A DNA stretch of 64,000 bases from Aequorivita vitellina (lineage in GTDB: Bacteria; Bacteroidota; Bacteroidia; Flavobacteriales; Flavobacteriaceae). The notes below the pieces were generated by a model. The model was not told the DNA's origin. It worked only from the letters and a program-made list of their open reading frames with translations, and made no database searches. Of this stretch, positions 15,193-51,473 are shown in pieces; position 1 is the stretch's first letter; each line of letters begins with the position of its first letter. Location of the stretch: the NCBI RefSeq assembly GCF_022008365.1, contig NZ_JAIRBA010000011.1, forward strand, positions 1-64,000, in the 5' to 3' direction. Both the position numbers and the translations under genes were made by a program.

Positions 15193-16065
15193 TTAGTCTA
15201 CTCCTAAATAGATAAAGGTGTTAAGAATTAATTTATTAACCCTTAATGATATAGCTTCACTCGTTCCACCAGCATTAGTTATAGTATTTGCAGTATGGGT
15301 GTGCGAGCCAGCATTACTAAAACTATAAGTGTGATTGTGGGAAACGGAGTTAGTAAACTTTTCTCTATAAGTACCACCTTCAGCCATTGGGTTATTGGCG
15401 GCTTCAAATTCAGCATTACTTAAATGGATGGTACCTATATCAGTATATTGATGTGTATGGTTGCCTCTATCATTACTGGTAACTGAGTGACTATGTGATA
15501 AAAAATCTGTTGAACCAGAAAAATTAATAACAGGTAAGTTTGAACTTAAAAGTGTTAAACCCGACGACGGATTCCCTACTGTTGTACCAATGGTTTCTGA
15601 AATTGCTCTTTGTTTTAGAGATTTATTTCTGCTATCTGGAAGATGAGTACCAAAAAGTGCTATACTATTACTATTAGCCACTCCGGTAAGGGCGCTCGTT
15701 GCTCTACCATCTAAAAAATACCAACCACCGTGATCTGTTGTTTGAACACTATATTTTATATCACCAACTTCTTCTCGTTGCAAAAAACTCCATTTATTTA
15801 TTATCCAAGTATAAAAACCGGCGCGTTTAAGTGAGCCTGTACCCGTATTGTAAACCATAGTTCCATTTACCAAGGCGACGTCTTGTGGGTTTGTAACTGT
15901 ACTTGTATCTGTAATGCTTTGCAGTGCAACGCGAGGTATTAATATACTGGAGCCTACCTCTAAAGCTGCATTAGGTTGGTTTTTGTTTATACCCACTTGG
16001 GCCCAAGTGGTGCTCGCTATTAATAAAATCGCTATAAGTAATATTAATTTATTTTTCATCTTCAT
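15193..16065 (-). CDS. Secreted tail-collar-like protein, copy 3
   Basis: A 290-residue protein with a signal peptide (hydrophobic core ending STTWAQ, about residue 22) directly followed by the surface-protein phrase VGIN..QPNAALEV. The middle has a collar-like motif GWYFLDGR and LPDSRNK, as in phage tail collar/fibre proteins. The second half is rich in His pairs (HSHS, HTHQY, HNHTYS, HTHT), which bind metal in fibre tips of that class. The C terminus NTFIYLGVD matches the usual IFLG ending. It is the last of three same-strand paralogues separated by 2-3 nt. Probably a secreted or surface fibre; no phage genes are nearby. Confidence 0.75.
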   Translation of the reverse strand: MKMKNKLILLIAILLIASTTWAQVGINKNQPNAALEVGSSILIPRVALQSITDTSTVTNPQDVALVNGTMVYNTGTGSLKRAGFYTWIINKWSFLQREEVGDIKYSVQTTDHGGWYFLDGRATSALTGVANSNSIALFGTHLPDSRNKSLKQRAISETIGTTVGNPSSGLTLLSSNLPVINFSGSTDFLSHSHSVTSNDRGNHTHQYTDIGTIHLSNAEFEAANNPMAEGGTYREKFTNSVSHNHTYSFSNAGSHTHTANTITNAGGTSEAISLRVNKLILNTFIYLGVD

Positions 16066-16068
16066 TTG

Positions 16069-16944
16069 TTATTTTCCTAGAAAAACAAAAACGTTTGTTA
16101 CTAGACTAGACGGTTCTAAATTAATTGTTGTAGGAGAAGGATTAACTGAAGAAATAGTCACGTCATGATGATGGTTTCCTGAACTCGCCGTAGTTAATAA
16201 ATGGTTATGTACCCCGTTGCCGCTAGTTGCAATAATCCTCGTTGCCGAATTGTTATCATCTAATGCATTTCGTTGTTCATTTCGATTGGCAACTTCAATC
16301 ATGTTAGCTCCATAATCACGTATACTATGCTCATGCGTTTTACTGTTCGTTGCGCCTGCATGTCCATGACTTCCACTTGTAGATATGCTTGGTGTTATTG
16401 AAAAAGCAGGCAAATTATTTTGAGTTAATAAATAATTATAACTTCCCCCAGTATTAGAACCAAGTACTTCAGAGCCATTCCTGCCAGTGGCAATGGCATT
16501 TTCGGCATTTGGCAAATTGGAGCCAAATAATGAACTTGCATTTGTCTGCGCAGTAGTGTTTGGTAGGCTTGCAGATGTTCTTCCATTTAATAAATACCAA
16601 CCATCGTGATCTGTTGTTTGTAAACTATATTTTACCTCACCAACACTTGTTTTTGCAAGTGCTATCCACATATTTCCATTCCAGAATAACAAACCGTTAT
16701 CTTTTAAACCAGCAGTTCCATCATTATAAACCATTGTGCCAATTGCAGGTGCCCCACCCGAGTTGGTATTTGTAACAGTTGTGTTATCTGTAGTTGAATT
16801 TAAACTAACAGCTGTTAGTAAAATGCCATTATCTGTAGCAACAACTTCTAATTCTGCATTTGGAGTTGTGGTGTTTATCCCAACCTGTGCTAGTGATGGA
16901 AAAACCACCAAGAGTAAAAGTATATTTGTAAGGTTATTTTTCAT
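16069..16944 (-). CDS. Secreted tail-collar-like protein, copy 2
   Basis: A 291-residue paralogue of its neighbours. The signal peptide ends near SLAQ (about residue 20), followed by VGINTTTPNAELEV. The collar motif reads GWYLLNGR, with LFGSNLPNAENA after it. A glycine/serine/histidine-rich half carries HGHAG, HEHSI, HNHLL and HHHDV clusters. The protein ends NVFVFLGK. The spacing to the upstream copy is 2 nt and to the downstream copy 3 nt, so the three are one transcription unit. Divergence is strongest in the His-rich half, the expected tip region. Confidence 0.75.
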   Translation of the reverse strand: MKNNLTNILLLLVVFPSLAQVGINTTTPNAELEVVATDNGILLTAVSLNSTTDNTTVTNTNSGGAPAIGTMVYNDGTAGLKDNGLLFWNGNMWIALAKTSVGEVKYSLQTTDHDGWYLLNGRTSASLPNTTAQTNASSLFGSNLPNAENAIATGRNGSEVLGSNTGGSYNYLLTQNNLPAFSITPSISTSGSHGHAGATNSKTHEHSIRDYGANMIEVANRNEQRNALDDNNSATRIIATSGNGVHNHLLTTASSGNHHHDVTISSVNPSPTTINLEPSSLVTNVFVFLGK

Positions 16945-16946
16945 AA

Positions 16947-17816
16947 TTATTCCCCTAAAAAAATAAAAATATTTACAGCTAAACTATTGGGTTTAGTGTT
17001 AAAACTACTAGCTGCGCCCGAATAAGTAGCAGTTGCAGTATGGTTGTGTGAACTTGGATTTGTATTAAAATTGTGACTATGCGAACCGCTGGCTCCAGAA
17101 CTGCGGGTACTACTGCTGGTAAATACAGGAACACTTAACGAACCGTCTTTTCCGTAAAACCAATCTGTTGTTCCTTTTTCTTGCCAAGTATGCCCATGGC
17201 GTTCATTATTTGCTGTTGTAGTATTTGGGTGGGTGTGGCCGCCATCATATTCTGTAGTTCCGTTTGCTGAAAAGCTAGGAATATTAGCAGTTGTTAAGGT
17301 TCTAGAGTTACTACCTACAATGCTTGCCAAAGTCTCAGTACTGGTTTTTCCTTTTAGATAACTATCGGCAGCATTTGGTAAAGTTGAGGTTAGTCCTAAT
17401 TGACTTGCCGCAATTTGCGCCGTGGCAGGCAAGGTATTAAGTGCACGACCATTAACCAAATACCAACCATTATGATCCTGAGTTTGTACACTGTATTTTA
17501 AATCGCCTTGGCGAATTCCTTTTATATTTATCCAATTATTGCCATCCCAAAGATAATAACCTGTAGGCGCCAAGCCAGATGCTCCAATGTTGAAAACAAA
17601 AGTACCAGGGGGTAAACTCCCACCTCTTGGATCTACAATTGTAGATACATCTGTATAAGAACTCAATTCCACCCTTGGAAAAAGAATACCTTTATCTGAT
17701 GATTTAACATCTAAAGCAGCTTCTGGCGTGGTTGTGCCAATACCAACTTGAGAAGTGGCAGAGATTGATAGTAGGAGACTTAGAACATAAATAGTAGCTC
17801 TAGTAGATTGTTGCAT
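16947..17816 (-). CDS. Secreted tail-collar-like protein, copy 1
   Basis: A 289-residue protein and the first gene of the trio. The signal peptide ends SATSQ (about residue 22), followed by VGIGTTTPEAALDV. Other landmarks are a collar motif GWYLVNGR, LPNAADSYLKG, His pairs (HTHPN, HGHTW, HSHNF, HNHTAT) and the ending NIFIFLGE. In Bacteroidetes the VGIxTxxPxAxLxV phrase marks the N terminus of many secreted fibre or endosialidase-chaperone-like proteins. I infer an extracellular trimeric fibre by analogy with tail collar proteins; the ligand is unknown. A promoter-like TATATTTG lies 33 bp upstream. Confidence 0.75.
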   Translation of the reverse strand: MQQSTRATIYVLSLLLSISATSQVGIGTTTPEAALDVKSSDKGILFPRVELSSYTDVSTIVDPRGGSLPPGTFVFNIGASGLAPTGYYLWDGNNWINIKGIRQGDLKYSVQTQDHNGWYLVNGRALNTLPATAQIAASQLGLTSTLPNAADSYLKGKTSTETLASIVGSNSRTLTTANIPSFSANGTTEYDGGHTHPNTTTANNERHGHTWQEKGTTDWFYGKDGSLSVPVFTSSSTRSSGASGSHSHNFNTNPSSHNHTATATYSGAASSFNTKPNSLAVNIFIFLGE

Positions 17817-46382: not shown

Positions 46383-47933
46383 ATGAGCGATATAAAAGTA
46401 CTATGGGTAGACGATGAAATAGATTTGCTTAAACCACATATTCTCTTTCTTGAAAATAAAAATTATAGCGTTACCACCGCTCAAAGTGGATCGGAAGCGT
46501 TAGAAGAAATAAAAAAAGAAAACTTCGATATTGTTTTTTTAGATGAAAACATGCCCGGGCTAACGGGTCTTGAAACCCTATCTGAAATTAAGGAACTTCA
46601 AGCCTCCATTCCGGTGGTAATGATTACCAAAAGTGAAGAAGAGTATATAATGGAAGAAGCCATTGGTTCTAAAATTGCCGATTATCTTATTAAGCCAGTT
46701 AACCCCAATCAAATACTATTGAGTTTAAAGAAAAATTTAGACCACAGCCGACTGGTTTCAGAAAAAACAACATCTAACTACCAGCAGGAATTCAGAAAAA
46801 TAGCCATGGATCTTTCAATGGTAAATAGCTTTGAAGAGTGGAAAGACCTATACACAAAGTTGGTGTACTGGGAGCTTGAATTAGAAGATATTGAAGATTC
46901 GGGTATGTTTGAAATTTTAGAATCTCAAAAAACCGAAGCAAACAGCCAGTTTTGTAAGTTTATCGACAAAAATTACCGCAATTGGTTTGAGGATGTGAGT
47001 GAGGCACCAATCATGTCGCACACACTTTTTAAAGAAAAAATTCAGCCTCAATTAACACAAGGCACCCCAACCCTACTAGTGGTAATAGACAATTTACGGT
47101 TCGATCAATGGAAGGCTTTTGAACCTACGGTTGCAAATATTTACAAAAAGACAAACGAAGAACTCTTCTGCAGTATTTTACCAACAGCAACACAGTATGC
47201 GCGTAATGCAATTTTTTCAGGATTAATGCCTAGCGATATGGAAAAACTACATCCCGATCTTTGGCTTAACGATACTGAAGATGGTGGAAAAAACATGAAA
47301 GAACAAGAGTTTTTTGATGCACAGTTAAAGCGACTGGGAATGAAACTTAATTGGAGTTATCACAAAATATCAAGCTTAAAACAAGGTAAAAAGCTAGTTG
47401 AAAATTTTAAAAGTCACAAGGATGAAGACTTAACTGTTGTTGTCTATAACTTTGTAGATATGTTATCGCACTCCAAAACGGAAATGGAGGTTATAAAGGA
47501 ATTAGCCTCAAACGATAAATCGTACCGTTCGCTTACCCAAAGTTGGTTTAAAAATTCGCCTTTGCTAGAAATTATACAGCAGGCAGCACGATTAGGATTT
47601 AAATTAATAATTACCACAGACCACGGAACAATTAATGTAAAAAACCCGTCAAAAGTAATTGGCGATAAAAACACAAGCCTAAACCTTAGGTATAAAACCG
47701 GAAAAAGTTTAACCTATGAAGATAAAGAAGTATTGGCAGCAAAAGACCCGAAATCTATACAATTGCCAACCATTAACATGAGTAGCTCATTTATTTTTGC
47801 AAAGGGCGATTACTTTTTTGCCTATCCCAACAATTACAATCACTATGTAAGTTATTATAGAAATACCTATCAACACGGAGGCGTTTCATTAGAAGAAATG
47901 ATAATTCCTTTCTCTGTTTTTACCCCTAAGTAA
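46383..47933 (+). CDS. porX: PorX response regulator with PglZ domain
   Basis: A 516-residue regulator. The receiver domain (about 1-125) has Asp pairs in WVDDEIDLL, phospho-acceptor Asp53 in VFLDENMPG, and Lys in YLIKPVNP. An alkaline-phosphatase-like PglZ domain follows (about 200-516), with VVIDNLRFDQW and TTDHGTI as metal-site phrases. PorX acts with PorY and SigP to control type IX secretion genes and gliding in this phylum, and its PglZ domain has been described as a phosphodiesterase. No porY lies nearby. It has a full promoter of its own and diverges from the HD gene. Confidence 0.95.
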   Translation: MSDIKVLWVDDEIDLLKPHILFLENKNYSVTTAQSGSEALEEIKKENFDIVFLDENMPGLTGLETLSEIKELQASIPVVMITKSEEEYIMEEAIGSKIADYLIKPVNPNQILLSLKKNLDHSRLVSEKTTSNYQQEFRKIAMDLSMVNSFEEWKDLYTKLVYWELELEDIEDSGMFEILESQKTEANSQFCKFIDKNYRNWFEDVSEAPIMSHTLFKEKIQPQLTQGTPTLLVVIDNLRFDQWKAFEPTVANIYKKTNEELFCSILPTATQYARNAIFSGLMPSDMEKLHPDLWLNDTEDGGKNMKEQEFFDAQLKRLGMKLNWSYHKISSLKQGKKLVENFKSHKDEDLTVVVYNFVDMLSHSKTEMEVIKELASNDKSYRSLTQSWFKNSPLLEIIQQAARLGFKLIITTDHGTINVKNPSKVIGDKNTSLNLRYKTGKSLTYEDKEVLAAKDPKSIQLPTINMSSSFIFAKGDYFFAYPNNYNHYVSYYRNTYQHGGVSLEEMIIPFSVFTPK

Positions 47934-48026
47934 TTAATTATCAAATATTTATTTGGGTGTGTTTTGCAATTTTTCAGCTAATTTCATTACTAATTGATTA
48001 TTAGCTATATTCGCATTGATTTTATT

Positions 48027-48440
48027 ATGGAACGCAACTATACCGAAAATGAAATTAATGAAGTAGCTACCAGCCTGTTAGACCAATCAACATCAAAAAT
48101 TTTTCTTTTTTATGGCGAAATGGGGGTTGGAAAAACCACTTTAATCAAGGAGATGGTAAAGCAGCTTGGGGTGGAAGACCCATCGAGCAGCCCTTCCTTT
48201 TCTATAGTAAATGAATACGAGTCGAACGCAGGTTTAGTATATCATTTTGATTTTTACAGAATAAACAATTATACCGAAGCGTACGACATTGGTCTTGAAG
48301 ATTATTTATACAGTGAAAATTACGTTTTTATTGAATGGCCAGATAAAATAAATCCCCTCTTGCCTGAAAACGCAACTAACATATATATTAAAGCAAACAC
48401 TAACGGAAGTAGAAACATAAAAATTAAGCCTATGAGTTAA
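48027..48440 (+). CDS. tsaE: tRNA threonylcarbamoyladenosine synthesis ATPase TsaE
   Basis: A 137-residue P-loop protein that partners TsaB and TsaD in making t6A37 of tRNA. Walker A is GEMGVGKTTL (about residue 31-40), followed by SSPSFSIVNEY, and HFDFYRI and FIEWPDKI match the family. ATG 48027 is chosen over an extension to 47994, because the family begins just before this point and the extension is unlike a protein. Confidence 0.94.
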   Translation: MERNYTENEINEVATSLLDQSTSKIFLFYGEMGVGKTTLIKEMVKQLGVEDPSSSPSFSIVNEYESNAGLVYHFDFYRINNYTEAYDIGLEDYLYSENYVFIEWPDKINPLLPENATNIYIKANTNGSRNIKIKPMS

Positions 48441-48557
48441 AATTGTAACGAAAAATAAAATATTTAAAATTACTTTTTAGTTGTTCGCCCCAAATCGCAA
48501 TAATTATAAAGCAGGAAGAATATTCCAAAAAAATTTATAAATATAGTAGAAAAATAG

Positions 48558-48590
48558 TTGGTTTTTTTAACTAATTTCATGGTAGGTTTG
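48558..48590 (+). promoter_or_regulatory. Promoter for overlapping module 1
   Basis: TTG 48558-48560, a 22-nt spacer and TAGGTTTG 48583-48590, 32 nt before the lipoprotein ATG. The same box and the same downstream text (AACCTCACAAAAAC) precede module 2. Confidence 0.7.
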
Positions 48591-48622
48591 AACTATTAAT
48601 AACCTCACAAAAACTATATATT

Positions 48623-48763
48623 ATGAAAACTCTAAAGTATTTACTTATCGTAACAATTTTTTCACTTGGAACTTTTGCTTCTTGTACCCCAGAAAGCATT
48701 CAAGATGAACAAACACCCCAACAAATCAAAAAGAGCGACATCATCATACCTAGTAACGGGTAG
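48623..48763 (+). CDS. Small lipoprotein (46 aa), module 1
   Basis: A short gene reading M-K-T-L-K with a hydrophobic core, then lipobox FASC (Cys21) and CTPESIQDEQTPQQIKKSDIII to a TAG. It should be a lipoprotein of about 26 mature residues. The last 59 nt overlap the start of the 170-aa membrane protein in the +1 frame. A near copy with the same length, lipobox and overlap lies at 49601. The conserved mature text CTPExIQDEQTxQQI in both copies argues for real translation. Function unknown. Confidence 0.75.
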   Translation: MKTLKYLLIVTIFSLGTFASCTPESIQDEQTPQQIKKSDIIIPSNG

Positions 48764-49217
48764 TCTTATTGCGCTAATTATAGCAGCAACACCTTATATT
48801 TTTTATTCCTATACAAGTTTCCCACAAACAAAAACGTGGGAAACTATTTTATTTACATACGAGGCCAATTGGTATCAAAAAATTCAGGTATCTGTATGGA
48901 CCATGATGGGTAAATTTGTACCGATTCTTCTTTTGGGTATTTGGTTTATAACCTGCAAGCACTGGTGGTACCACGTAATTCTTATCCCCATCGGTATGTT
49001 TGCTTTTCAATTATTTAGTGTTATAAATGATGATGTAGGAATTACTGATGAAGTTGAAATATGGTGGCTTTTCCCTATAATGCTTATAATTATTCCTTTT
49101 GTCTATCTTATTAAAGCGAAATTGTCGAACGCTTTGACAGAAAAAGACATGAAAACATTTGAAGAAGAGTTAGGGCAGAAAAAATCGTTTTGGGATCAGA
49201 TAAAAGATTTATTCTAA
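48705..49217 (+). CDS. Three-helix membrane protein (170 aa), module 1
   Basis: ATG 48705 lies inside the small lipoprotein gene (82 nt from its start, +1 frame). A longer reading from TTG 48666 would run through the lipoprotein frame and is rejected. Three hydrophobic helices are at about residues 18-36, 66-84 and 88-112, with a fourth near 118-138. The conserved phrase TCKHWWYH and the ending QKKSFWDQIKDLF recur in the paralogue at 49683. No family or function is recognised. Confidence 0.75.
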   Translation: MNKHPNKSKRATSSYLVTGSLIALIIAATPYIFYSYTSFPQTKTWETILFTYEANWYQKIQVSVWTMMGKFVPILLLGIWFITCKHWWYHVILIPIGMFAFQLFSVINDDVGITDEVEIWWLFPIMLIIIPFVYLIKAKLSNALTEKDMKTFEEELGQKKSFWDQIKDLF

Positions 49218-49600
49218 TTGTGAAGTTGATGTAACTATCATATATTAACCTATCTTAGCATTTCCGTATTTATTATTCCTATTTTAAAATAACCTTTACT
49301 AAATATGGAAAATAGACTGCGACAAACCTTCGGTTTGTACAACTTTAACCTAATTTAAAAACAAACTATCAATTTCTAAAAACAGGAAAAAAATAAACAA
49401 CTGCAGCTATTTGCACAGCAAAAATTGTAGCTTTAGGTTTTAACATTTAATTAAAAATTAACACGAAACAACGCTTTTGAACGTTATTTAAATGAATTTA
49501 AGCGTATTAAAACCTGTAAATATACAATTAACATAATTATTAATAATAAGTTTTTTGGGCGTAGGTTTGACTCATATTAACCTCACAAAAACTTATTATT
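49218..49600. other. Gap between the two modules
   Basis: Nothing coding is seen. A hairpin of 7 bp (ACAAACC/GGTTTGT, 49322-49338, loop TTC) follows the first module without a T-tract. Long A/T-rich text, including repeated TTAACATTTAATTAAAAATTAACA, precedes the second promoter. Confidence 0.5.
49562..49569 (+). promoter_or_regulatory. -7 box for overlapping module 2
   Basis: TAGGTTTG, the same box as module 1, 31 nt before the lipoprotein ATG and followed by the same AACCTCACAAAAAC text. The upstream TTG is degraded to ATT. Confidence 0.55.
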
Positions 49601-49741
49601 ATGAAAAACTTAAAACTTATTTTTGTAGCTGCAATTTTTGCCGCAGGATTATTCGCTTCTTGCACCCCAGAAGGAATTCAAGATGAACAAACCACACAAC
49701 AAATCGACGTCAGAACGGTTAAGGTTCCGCCAGCCGGATAA
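49601..49741 (+). CDS. Small lipoprotein (46 aa), module 2
   Basis: Identical in length to the module 1 lipoprotein. It begins MKNLKLIFVAAIFAAG, has lipobox FASC with Cys21, and matches CTPEGIQDEQTTQQI, then diverges to a basic, proline-rich end (VRTVKVPPAG) and a TAA. The last 59 nt overlap the downstream membrane protein, with the same 82-nt offset as in module 1. Confidence 0.75.
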   Translation: MKNLKLIFVAAIFAAGLFASCTPEGIQDEQTTQQIDVRTVKVPPAG

Positions 49742-50216
49742 AAAAAGTTTAATACAAGGAGGCATAATTGTATTTATTATAGCGTGTACTCCTTTTATTT
49801 ATTACGCATACGAAAGTTTCCCAAGCGACACACAAGTTTGGGAAACTTTTTTATTTACATTCACCACCAAATATCCTAACTTAAATCAATACGCTTGGTT
49901 TTTAACCGGAAAAGTAATCCCTGTTATTTTATTATTTATTTGGTTTTTTACTTGCAAACACTGGTGGCACTGGATTATATTGGTTCCACTTTCTATGTAT
50001 ATTTTTCAATTTGTCAACATTTTGAACCAGAATCTAAATGCTGATGAAGTTGAGATTATTTATGTAGTACCAATTATGATGATTGTAATTCCCTTCGTGT
50101 ATTTAATTAGAGCCAAACTCTTTAGCCAAATGCGACAAGACGATTTAAAATCTTTTGAAAAAGAACTTCTCGAAAAACAGTCGTTTTGGCAGCAAATAAA
50201 AGATCTCTTTCGCTAA
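49683..50216 (+). CDS. Three-helix membrane protein (177 aa), module 2
   Basis: ATG 49683 lies 82 nt inside the small lipoprotein gene, +1 frame, exactly as in module 1. The protein parallels the 170-aa paralogue: three to four helices (about residues 26-43, 73-92, 96-118, 124-145), FTCKHWWHW in the second loop, DEVEI, and the ending LLEKQSFWQQIKDLFR. The paralogues share the membrane-facing half and differ most at the N terminus. Function unknown. The start of ald is 57 bp downstream. Confidence 0.75.
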   Translation: MNKPHNKSTSERLRFRQPDKKSLIQGGIIVFIIACTPFIYYAYESFPSDTQVWETFLFTFTTKYPNLNQYAWFLTGKVIPVILLFIWFFTCKHWWHWIILVPLSMYIFQFVNILNQNLNADEVEIIYVVPIMMIVIPFVYLIRAKLFSQMRQDDLKSFEKELLEKQSFWQQIKDLFR

Positions 50217-50273
50217 TCATTCTGTTATAGGTTTAAAAATTATTCCGTAAATTGAGACTGCCAAATTAACATA

Positions 50274-51473
50274 ATGTCAAAACCAAAATCACCCTTTACA
50301 CGGGCACAATTGCTTCCGCAGGAAGAAACACTAGAAATCTCGAAACAAAAAGGAGAACTTTTTATCGGTATTCCAAAGGAAGCATATTTTCAGGAAAAAC
50401 GAATTTGCTTAACCCCCGACGCCGTTAACGCTATTATAAACAATGGCCACCGGGTGCTAATTGAAAATGGCGCGGGTACCGAGGCTGGGTTTTCAGATAA
50501 AGATTATTCGGAAGCTGGAGCCGAAATGACCACTGATAAAAAAAAGGTGTTTGGATGCCCAATGGTTTTAAAAGTTGAGCCCCCCACGCTGGAAGAGCTT
50601 GAATTGATAAATCCAAAAACGGTTTTAATATCTGCTTTACAGTTAAAAACGAGGCAGAAATCATATTTCGAAACATTATCAAAAAAGAAAATAACGGCTT
50701 TAGCTTTTGAATTTATTAAGGATGAAGATCACAGCTACCCCGCCGTTAAAGCACTAAGCGAAATTGCAGGCACAGCCTCTGTACTCATCGCAGCCGAATT
50801 AATGGTAAATGCAAAAAAAGGAAACGGTTTGCTATTCGGTAATATTAGCGGGGTTCCACCGGTTGAAGTAGTAGTTATTGGCGCAGGCACCGTGGGTGAA
50901 TTTGCCACGAGATCTGCATTGGGCCTAGGCGCAAATGTCAAGGTTTTCGACAGCTCCATTACTAAGCTCAGAAAAATTCAAACTAATGTTGGAAGTATAT
51001 TATATACTTCAACCGTCCAACCTAAAAACCTTATGAAGGCTTTACGCCGATGCGATGTAGCCATTGGCGCCGTTAGAGGGCATAATCGCGCTCCCGTTAT
51101 CGTAACAGACGAAATGGTGCGTAATATGAAAAAAGGTGCCGTTATTATTGATGTTTGCGTAGATATGGGTGGGTGTTTTGAAACAACAGAAATGACGAGC
51201 CATGACTCCCCTACTTTTATTAAACACGACGTTATACATTACGGGGTTCCAAATATTCCCGCTCGTTACCCTAAAACTGCATCTATTTCTATTAGTAACA
51301 TATTCACCCCCTATCTATTAGAAATGGCAGAAGGTGGCGGACTTGAAAACGCCATTCGCTTTGACAATGGTTTAAAAAATGGTTTGTACTTTTACCGCGG
51401 AATTTTAACAAGTAAAGCAGTTGCAGATTGGTTTGATATGCCGTATAGCGACATAAACTTGATAATTTTCTAA
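50274..51473 (+). CDS. ald: Alanine dehydrogenase
   Basis: A 399-residue NAD-dependent enzyme that interconverts alanine and pyruvate with ammonia. The family signatures are IGIPKEAYFQEKRICLTPDAV near the N terminus and VVVIGAGTVGEFATRSALGLGANVKVFDSS as the Rossmann loop (about 198-226). The length is slightly above the usual 370 because of an N-terminal extension of about 25 residues. The NAD(P) transhydrogenase alpha subunit is a related family; overall length favours ald. Confidence 0.9.
   Translation: MSKPKSPFTRAQLLPQEETLEISKQKGELFIGIPKEAYFQEKRICLTPDAVNAIINNGHRVLIENGAGTEAGFSDKDYSEAGAEMTTDKKKVFGCPMVLKVEPPTLEELELINPKTVLISALQLKTRQKSYFETLSKKKITALAFEFIKDEDHSYPAVKALSEIAGTASVLIAAELMVNAKKGNGLLFGNISGVPPVEVVVIGAGTVGEFATRSALGLGANVKVFDSSITKLRKIQTNVGSILYTSTVQPKNLMKALRRCDVAIGAVRGHNRAPVIVTDEMVRNMKKGAVIIDVCVDMGGCFETTEMTSHDSPTFIKHDVIHYGVPNIPARYPKTASISISNIFTPYLLEMAEGGGLENAIRFDNGLKNGLYFYRGILTSKAVADWFDMPYSDINLIIF

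Follow-up and report, generated by a model that had tools for sequence, protein, structure and literature searches.

Overlapping genes for a secreted peptide and a membrane protein, with a terminator-like hairpin inside the larger gene, in Aequorivita vitellina and related Flavobacteriaceae

The tandem modules and their neighbours

The window, i.e., the whole 64,000-nt stretch of Aequorivita vitellina DNA that was analysed, contains an overlapping gene pair twice in tandem. In both copies, the distance from ATG to ATG is 82 nt, and the overlap of 59 nt is in the +1 frame. Each pair is preceded by the sequence TAnnTTTG, which we take to be the -7 box of a Bacteroidetes-type promoter. The features are listed below.

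48027..48440, + strand: tsaE, upstream neighbour of the modules (Pfam TsaE, 8.3e-36)
48583..48590, + strand: copy 1, presumed -7 box TAGGTTTG, read from the sequence; TTGG at 48558-48561, 21 nt upstream of the box
48623..48763, + strand: copy 1, small ORF, 46-aa lipoprotein-like secreted peptide (lipobox FASC, tail end PSNG)
48705..48763, + strand: copy 1, overlap of 59 nt in two frames (+1), both constrained in relatives
48705..49217, + strand: copy 1, large ORF, 170-aa putative membrane protein of the same family as copy 2 (ATG at 48705, stop at 49217)
48816..48845, + strand: copy 1, hairpin in the membrane ORF (10-bp stem, 10-nt loop)
48846-48855, + strand: copy 1, T-tract ATTTTATTTA directly 3' of the hairpin
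49562..49569, + strand: copy 2, presumed -7 box TAGGTTTG, read from the sequence
49601..49741, + strand: copy 2, small ORF, 46-aa lipoprotein-like secreted peptide (tail end PPAG)
49683..49741, + strand: copy 2, overlap of 59 nt in two frames (+1), with constraint in relatives
49683..50216, + strand: copy 2, large ORF, 177-aa protein (ATG at 49683, stop at 50216; structure model, mean pLDDT 71)
49812..49850, + strand: copy 2, terminator-like hairpin in the membrane ORF (15-bp stem, 9-nt loop), running into the T-tract
49847-49856, + strand: copy 2, T-tract TTTTTTATTT at the 3' side of the hairpin
50274..51473, + strand: alanine dehydrogenase/PNT family gene, downstream neighbour (Pfam AlaDh_PNT)

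The initial annotation had described two modules with a box, a common leader, a 46-codon ORF, an 82-nt offset and a 59-nt overlap, and its coordinates proved exact. The leader ACCTCACAAAAACT is common to both copies. A search of the organism's own genome for TAnnTTTG followed after 8-18 nt by ACCTCACAAAAAC returned solely the two module sites. The membrane proteins of the two copies are 51% identical. The nearest named relatives are from Aequorivita, with up to 88% protein identity. The hairpin of copy 1 begins 52 nt after the peptide stop and folds with -14.9 kcal/mol (z -6.1); for copy 2, the corresponding values are 70 nt and -20.3 kcal/mol (z -7.9).

The structure model of the copy 2 protein, of moderate confidence, displayed four long helices, presumed to span the membrane; a small beta-hairpin separates the first two, and short helices follow at the C-terminus. 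The initial annotation did not recognise the family of either protein, and curated families and solved folds were equally silent. The copy 2 model matched no PDB fold at E 0.001, the membrane-family profile matched no PDB sequence, and the four window proteins yielded nothing above the curated cut-offs of Pfam, NCBIfam and PADLOC. Matches below the Pfam and NCBIfam cut-offs were dropped. Among 37 relatives searched against Pfam, a single member gave one weak match (0.0016). No account of this peptide/membrane-protein pair was found in a literature search of partial coverage.

Two further observations concern the window itself. A response regulator with a PglZ domain (46383-47933), presumably PorX-like, lies directly upstream of tsaE and the modules. 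On the minus strand at 15193-17816, three adjoining related ORFs of about 290 aa share, by eye, a QTTDHDGWYLLNGR-like stretch; the single one scanned had no Pfam match.

Conservation of the pair and coding in both frames

Because a shared offset within a duplication could be due to descent, the decisive test of the overlap lay in homologues outside the window. The membrane protein was detected in 275 of 397 sampled Flavobacteriaceae genomes, and a profile search across 296 genomes of the order recovered it from 18, of which 16 belong to the same family. After removal of 22 of 322 tblastn frames (score <80 or frame >330 codons), the homologue set comprised 300 membrane ORFs from 272 loci, with some species represented twice. 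A peptide-profile search placed the peptide gene upstream of 289 of the 300. The genes overlap in 236 cases and are separate in 43; 10 membrane ORFs have no assignable ATG, and 11 lack a peptide match. Frames are broken or unassigned at L069, L098 and L099. The +1 frame is used by every one of the 236 overlapping pairs; the 43 separate ones are spread over the three relative frames (19, 14 and 10). Only overlapping cases were used to train the peptide profile, which is a possible bias; it recovers separate genes in all three frames and is thus not tied to one of them. The overlap is exactly 59 nt in 125 of the 236 pairs and 50-71 nt in 222, with start-to-stop distances ranging from 47 to 131 nt.

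We measured synonymous change as the fraction of unchanged-residue codons that differ, using 48 independent pairs with the exact 59-nt overlap. Inside the overlap, this fraction was 0.207 in the peptide frame and 0.081 in the membrane frame, as compared with 0.454 elsewhere in the membrane gene. The preceding part of the peptide gene was also low (0.257), which the overlap does not account for. In 15 separate, more diverged control pairs, the values were 0.49 for peptide tails and 0.548 for membrane genes. The reduced synonymous change supports dual coding. The frequency of residue change in the overlap was 0.28 for the peptide frame and 0.40 for the membrane frame; hence, the peptide is the more constrained product, and the N-terminal tail of the membrane protein is more tolerant. 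It is hardly credible that only one gene is real and the other frame merely open. By reasoning rather than computation, a 59-nt open stretch in another frame should be common by chance in a genome, but chance would not place all 236 overlapping pairs in one frame or lower synonymous change in both. The initial annotation would have been refuted had no homologue kept both frames open; both frames are in fact open and constrained in many relatives.

The locus is syntenic. The tsaE gene lies upstream of 203 of 211 membrane ORFs, and, within the stretches examined, the alanine dehydrogenase/PNT gene lies downstream of 153 of 211. Of 18 loci titled Aequorivita, 16 retain the tandem double pair; among the other two, L033 is truncated by the end of its contig, and the full-length L049 has one pair. 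For a quick tree, the 273 distinct membrane proteins were thinned to 225 (<80% identity). One clade of 149 rows held 145 overlapping pairs, and another of 58 rows held 43 separate and 10 overlapping pairs; overlapping rows also appeared on deep branches. The root is the midpoint, and we make no claim as to whether the overlapping or the separate state is older. In 40 genomes without a membrane-gene match, the best listed peptide-profile match was 4.9e-8, in a 122-codon frame, and the others listed were no better than 1e-6 and lay for the most part in longer frames.

Some long proteins, among them products of open frames of about 320-450 codons, show weak similarity to the membrane family, in many cases over two or three places, like fused copies. 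They occur, for instance, at L126 and L158 (minus strand) and at L190 (plus strand, opposite to its pair). In several genomes, they are encoded on the opposite strand near the pair.

The initial annotation called the small product a lipoprotein. The lipobox is present in both window copies, but the term does not hold family-wide: by our own pattern for a lipobox-like site, 133 of the 236 overlapping peptides have one and 103 do not. The latter look like ordinary secreted peptides. Many relatives' peptides read MKTKK-hydrophobic-AQA-...-PTHG, which to our reading would be of the signal-peptidase-I type. The motif A/S-Q-A/S occurs in 52 of 98 non-lipid overlapping peptides, which is only suggestive of the Q-rule described after signal peptidase I cleavage in Bacteroidetes (PMC5837995, in the part cited).

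At the C-terminus, the peptides carry a motif of about [IV][DE]K-xx-I-xx-P-xx-G, with a terminal Gly in 67 of 70 lipo-type rows and 63 of 98 other overlapping rows. In 10 of 215 peptides, every one from the separate class, a tail unit such as VDKTKI occurs two to four times over; tandem-unit tails (e.g., VDKTKIPSQAKKQSF) are seen at L163, L169, L223, L225, L254 and L255. At L197, L198 and L211, several near-identical small lipoprotein genes stand in a row upstream of the membrane gene, in sequence containing some N bases. The repeated units and the rows of peptide genes point to the tail as the probable working part. The peptide and the membrane protein probably work together, and the peptide would presumably be a ligand or subunit produced in larger amounts than its membrane partner.

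A secretion signal, a short mature part, near-identical repeated units in several species and an adjoining partner in 289 of 300 cases would also suit an intercellular signal, i.e., a pheromone- or bacteriocin-like precursor with the membrane protein as processor, receptor or immunity partner. We regard this as unlikely. The conserved neighbours suggest a housekeeping locus rather than a mobile weapon. Between tsaE and the dehydrogenase gene of the window, no further gene was recognised. Furthermore, a single unrepeated unit together with a lipobox, as seen in many peptides, would hold these on the cell.

Promoter, translation starts and the hairpin in the membrane gene

Of 162 overlapping divergent loci, 151 have TAnnTTTG no more than 110 nt ahead of the peptide ATG, where shuffling predicts 12.7. 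Its spacing to this ATG was 33-44 nt in 140 of the 151 and 36-40 nt in 117. The complete TTG-N17-23-TAnnTTTG arrangement was present in only 34 of the 162 loci. The leader is conserved in relatives too. A promoter of the membrane gene's own is not general, with TAnnTTTG lying between the ATGs in 16 of 162 loci.

The two starts differ in context. A occupies positions -3, -12 and -13 at 95, 78 and 95% of the peptide ATGs, versus 44, 45 and 25% of the internal ATGs. According to the cited portion of PMC6847099, A at these positions promotes initiation in Flavobacterium johnsoniae. Shine-Dalgarno-like four-mers stand ahead of 4 of the 163 internal starts and of none of the 163 peptide starts, and the internal start sits in a fairly low-structure stretch. 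In all 157 cases examined out of 163, the membrane frame is closed by a stop within the peptide gene, upstream of the internal ATG, and in 100 of them the open membrane frame has no ATG, GTG or TTG ahead of that ATG. Only 2 codons, at the median, separate the peptide stop from helix 1 of the membrane protein, so the absence of a start codon between these points (0 of 157) is a weak result. Up to the helix-1 proline, 66 of 157 have a start-like codon, of which 11 are ATG. The consistent in-frame stop and the kept ATG disfavour a programmed frameshift fusion; a shift inside the overlap itself may still occur.

The structure profile peaked about 140 nt past the internal ATG, where a stem is followed by a T-tract inside the membrane gene. 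By a rule requiring a stem of at least 7 bp, three GC pairs and six T of eight, a terminator-like hairpin was found in 152 of 168 divergent overlapping pairs, versus 17 expected after codon shuffling; this count left out one of 47 separate rows and 10 rows without a peptide. The GC-containing stem and T-tract of intrinsic terminators are thus seen in these relatives as well as in both window copies. The hairpin lies a median of 72 nt past the peptide stop in the overlapping rows, and its stem reaches at least 9 bp in 146 of 168. The 16 rows without a site include the deep-branching L202, L212, L213 and L260. In separate pairs, 34 of 46 have a terminator-like site in the gap between the genes (a raw count, with no shuffled baseline), and 9 of 46 have one in the gene, versus 3 expected. 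The 10 overlapping rows of the mostly separate clade have the hairpin in 7 cases (e.g., L103_3480, L164_3827 and L185) and lack it in 3. Overlap and internal hairpin therefore tend to occur together, with exceptions. A stricter terminator scan of 48400-50300 returned none, its loops stopping at 8 nt where the present hairpins have 9-10, and RNAalifold alone gave 5 inner pairs only.

Covariation was assessed on 103 chosen sequences of 160 hairpins, the exclusions comprising, among others, overlapping members of the mostly separate clade. In this set, 94.1% of 1206 cells pair, and changes on both sides affect 100 cells, versus 19.9 after shuffling; sliding the stem register lowered pairing to 64.1% or less. 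Full pairing of two facing codons is possible in 124 of the 161 overlapping rows, where shuffling gave a mean of 55.5 and at most 70; of the 16 separate rows, 2 allow it. The coupled residues follow the stem: Phe/Glu in 48, Val/Asp in 43, Val/Asn in 24 and Leu/Glu in 8 rows, with Val/Glu (6) and a few others off the rule. In a strict protein register, at least 9 of 12 pairs are kept in 126 of 161 overlapping rows, versus 106.9 with shuffled partners, an excess much smaller than on the 103 chosen sequences, partly owing to rows misplaced by the anchor; among separate rows, 1 of 16 keeps as many. These register-dependent counts lost 42 of 225 rows (31 of 47 separate rows) to a required protein motif, and one earlier hairpin count lost 49 of 225 to the same requirement. 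A DNA operator was considered in place of an RNA hairpin; the one-sided T-tract and the common G-U pairs (32 U-G and 39 G-U wobble cells at two stem pairs) favour RNA.

In leader-peptide attenuators, a small ORF and then a terminator precede most of the main gene. The present order of small ORF, terminator-like hairpin and bulk of the main gene is alike, and two starts of unequal context on one stretch would fit a device in which the small ORF is merely cis-acting, its translation controls termination, and the peptide has no job of its own. This is nevertheless decidedly improbable. The small ORF encodes a conserved secreted product: besides its signal peptide or lipobox, it has a conserved tail and a C-terminal Gly. 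Peptides of non-overlapping genes keep the tail, some with internal repeats, and several peptide genes stand in a row at three loci. Furthermore, the main gene here starts upstream of the terminator-like hairpin, inside the small ORF.

The transcript ending at the hairpin might instead be a small regulatory RNA, perhaps with a dual function through the peptide. The box-to-T-tract unit of about 273 nt (copy 1) or 295 nt (copy 2) and the conserved leader would suit this, and read-through sRNA/mRNA isoforms are known elsewhere, as described for IsrK in the cited part of PMC4825925. The peptide frame is, however, under protein-level constraint, and Rfam gave no match near the gathering score over 47900-50400; a hit to RalA (21.3 bits against a gathering score of 170) was dropped. 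We consider such an RNA very unlikely.

Proposed mechanism, known systems and a second family

With these results in hand, we propose that each copy is probably a module with two products. Driven by a strong Bacteroidetes promoter and helped by a favourable start context, the peptide, secreted or lipidated, would be made from a short mRNA ending at the terminator-like hairpin inside the partner's coding sequence. The start codon of this partner lies inside the peptide gene in the +1 frame, and read-through transcripts with weaker internal initiation would give a smaller amount of the four-helix membrane protein. Peptide-frame ribosomes would halt before the hairpin, whereas a ribosome started at the internal ATG could unfold it, tying read-through to translation of the second frame. 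Through its C-terminal motif, the peptide may act as a ligand or subunit of the membrane protein. From the sequences, we infer that the hairpin terminates transcription and that the promoter and both starts have the strengths their sequences suggest. The order promoter-peptide-terminator-membrane gene is also found where the genes are separate.

The initial annotation had proposed that the overlap couples a surface lipoprotein with its membrane partner or keeps the two in a fixed ratio. A linked peptide/membrane-protein pair with a set ratio is a sound reading, but the lipid anchor does not extend to the whole family, and the surface location is putative. That account lacked the conserved hairpin as the likely ratio control; its place inside the larger gene suggests a built-in means of setting the product ratio. 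Coupling in the sense of termination-reinitiation is unlikely, since the start lies 59 nt before the stop (47-131 nt in relatives) rather than within a few nucleotides of it; coupling is most efficient at -4 to +3 nt, according to the cited part of PMC12548453.

The arrangement resembles that of phage spanins, in which a small lipoprotein gene overlaps a membrane-protein gene out of frame. An i-spanin has one N-terminal helix and a periplasmic domain; our partner is modelled with four long helices. O-spanins are outer-membrane lipoproteins; a lipobox-like site occurs in both window copies and in 133 of the 236 overlapping peptides, and is absent from the other 103. Here, moreover, the small gene comes first, and no lysis genes are near, the flanks being tsaE and the alanine dehydrogenase gene. 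As far as the cited part of PMC6139136 goes, spanins such as lambda Rz/Rz1 and the P2 overlapped type pair a small lipoprotein with an inner-membrane protein from overlapping out-of-frame genes, and two-component spanins exist in embedded, overlapped and separated versions.

In the coat-lysis pair of the RNA phage MS2, too, the second gene starts within the first and the overlap is long. There, no transcription terminator is involved, whereas a terminator-like hairpin lies inside the second gene here. For this pair (-50 nt), ribosomes on the first gene are proposed to unfold the RNA for the second (PMC12548453, part cited). The present hairpin also differs from ORF-internal termination in E. 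coli in that it would serve an overlapping second gene, and in being conserved across many genera with linked amino-acid changes. In the E. coli case, premature RNA ends within coding sequences have reportedly been taken as regulation.

A third, divergent pair in the organism's own genome has the same arrangement.

G000:C131, about 128268-128949 (L106:1492-2176): lipoprotein and membrane-protein genes of the third pair
L106:1166-1240: tRNA-Met beside the third pair

Its +1 overlap is 83 nt, and it has an internal terminator-like hairpin (z -5.3). The lipoprotein tail resembles that of the first family; the membrane protein does not, and its helices are our own reading of hydrophobic stretches rather than of a model. 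A further small ORF overlaps the end of this pair. In a search limited to the +1 relation, a small ORF with an SC-lipobox overlapped the second-family gene at 20 of 20 same-genus loci (80-89 nt) and at 7 of 7 more distant loci (59-92 nt). A terminator-like site was found in 24 of 27, at 73-88 nt in 19 of 20 same-genus loci and at scattered positions in 5 of 7 distant ones. At the 20 same-genus loci, which are close relatives, two facing codons always match: GAG with TCC in 17 and GAA with TCT in 3. Homology of the two membrane families is not claimed (hhalign probability 0.65% and 5.8%).

A bolder reading, which we hold only tentatively, is that the frame choice of the leading ribosome decides the fate of the transcript in at least two membrane families, and that the terminator dictated paired residue changes. 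Peptide-frame ribosomes would let the hairpin end the mRNA, and second-frame ribosomes would pass and extend it. Such a device would be widespread in flavobacteria, and the dictated changes would be Phe with Glu and Val with Asp or Asn. If true, it would join conserved out-of-frame coding, a terminator inside a conserved protein gene and RNA-driven residue coevolution; we know of no case that combines the three. A protein-contact method could misread such coevolution as a contact, if this reading holds.

The locus would provide a new secreted-peptide/membrane-protein pair. A 46-residue secreted product of an overlapping gene is the type of gene that gene callers lose, and a bias of gene callers against overlapped genes has been stated for spanins (PMC6139136, part cited). 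The pair also offers a testable case of the choice between two close starts in bacteria that hardly use Shine-Dalgarno sequences.
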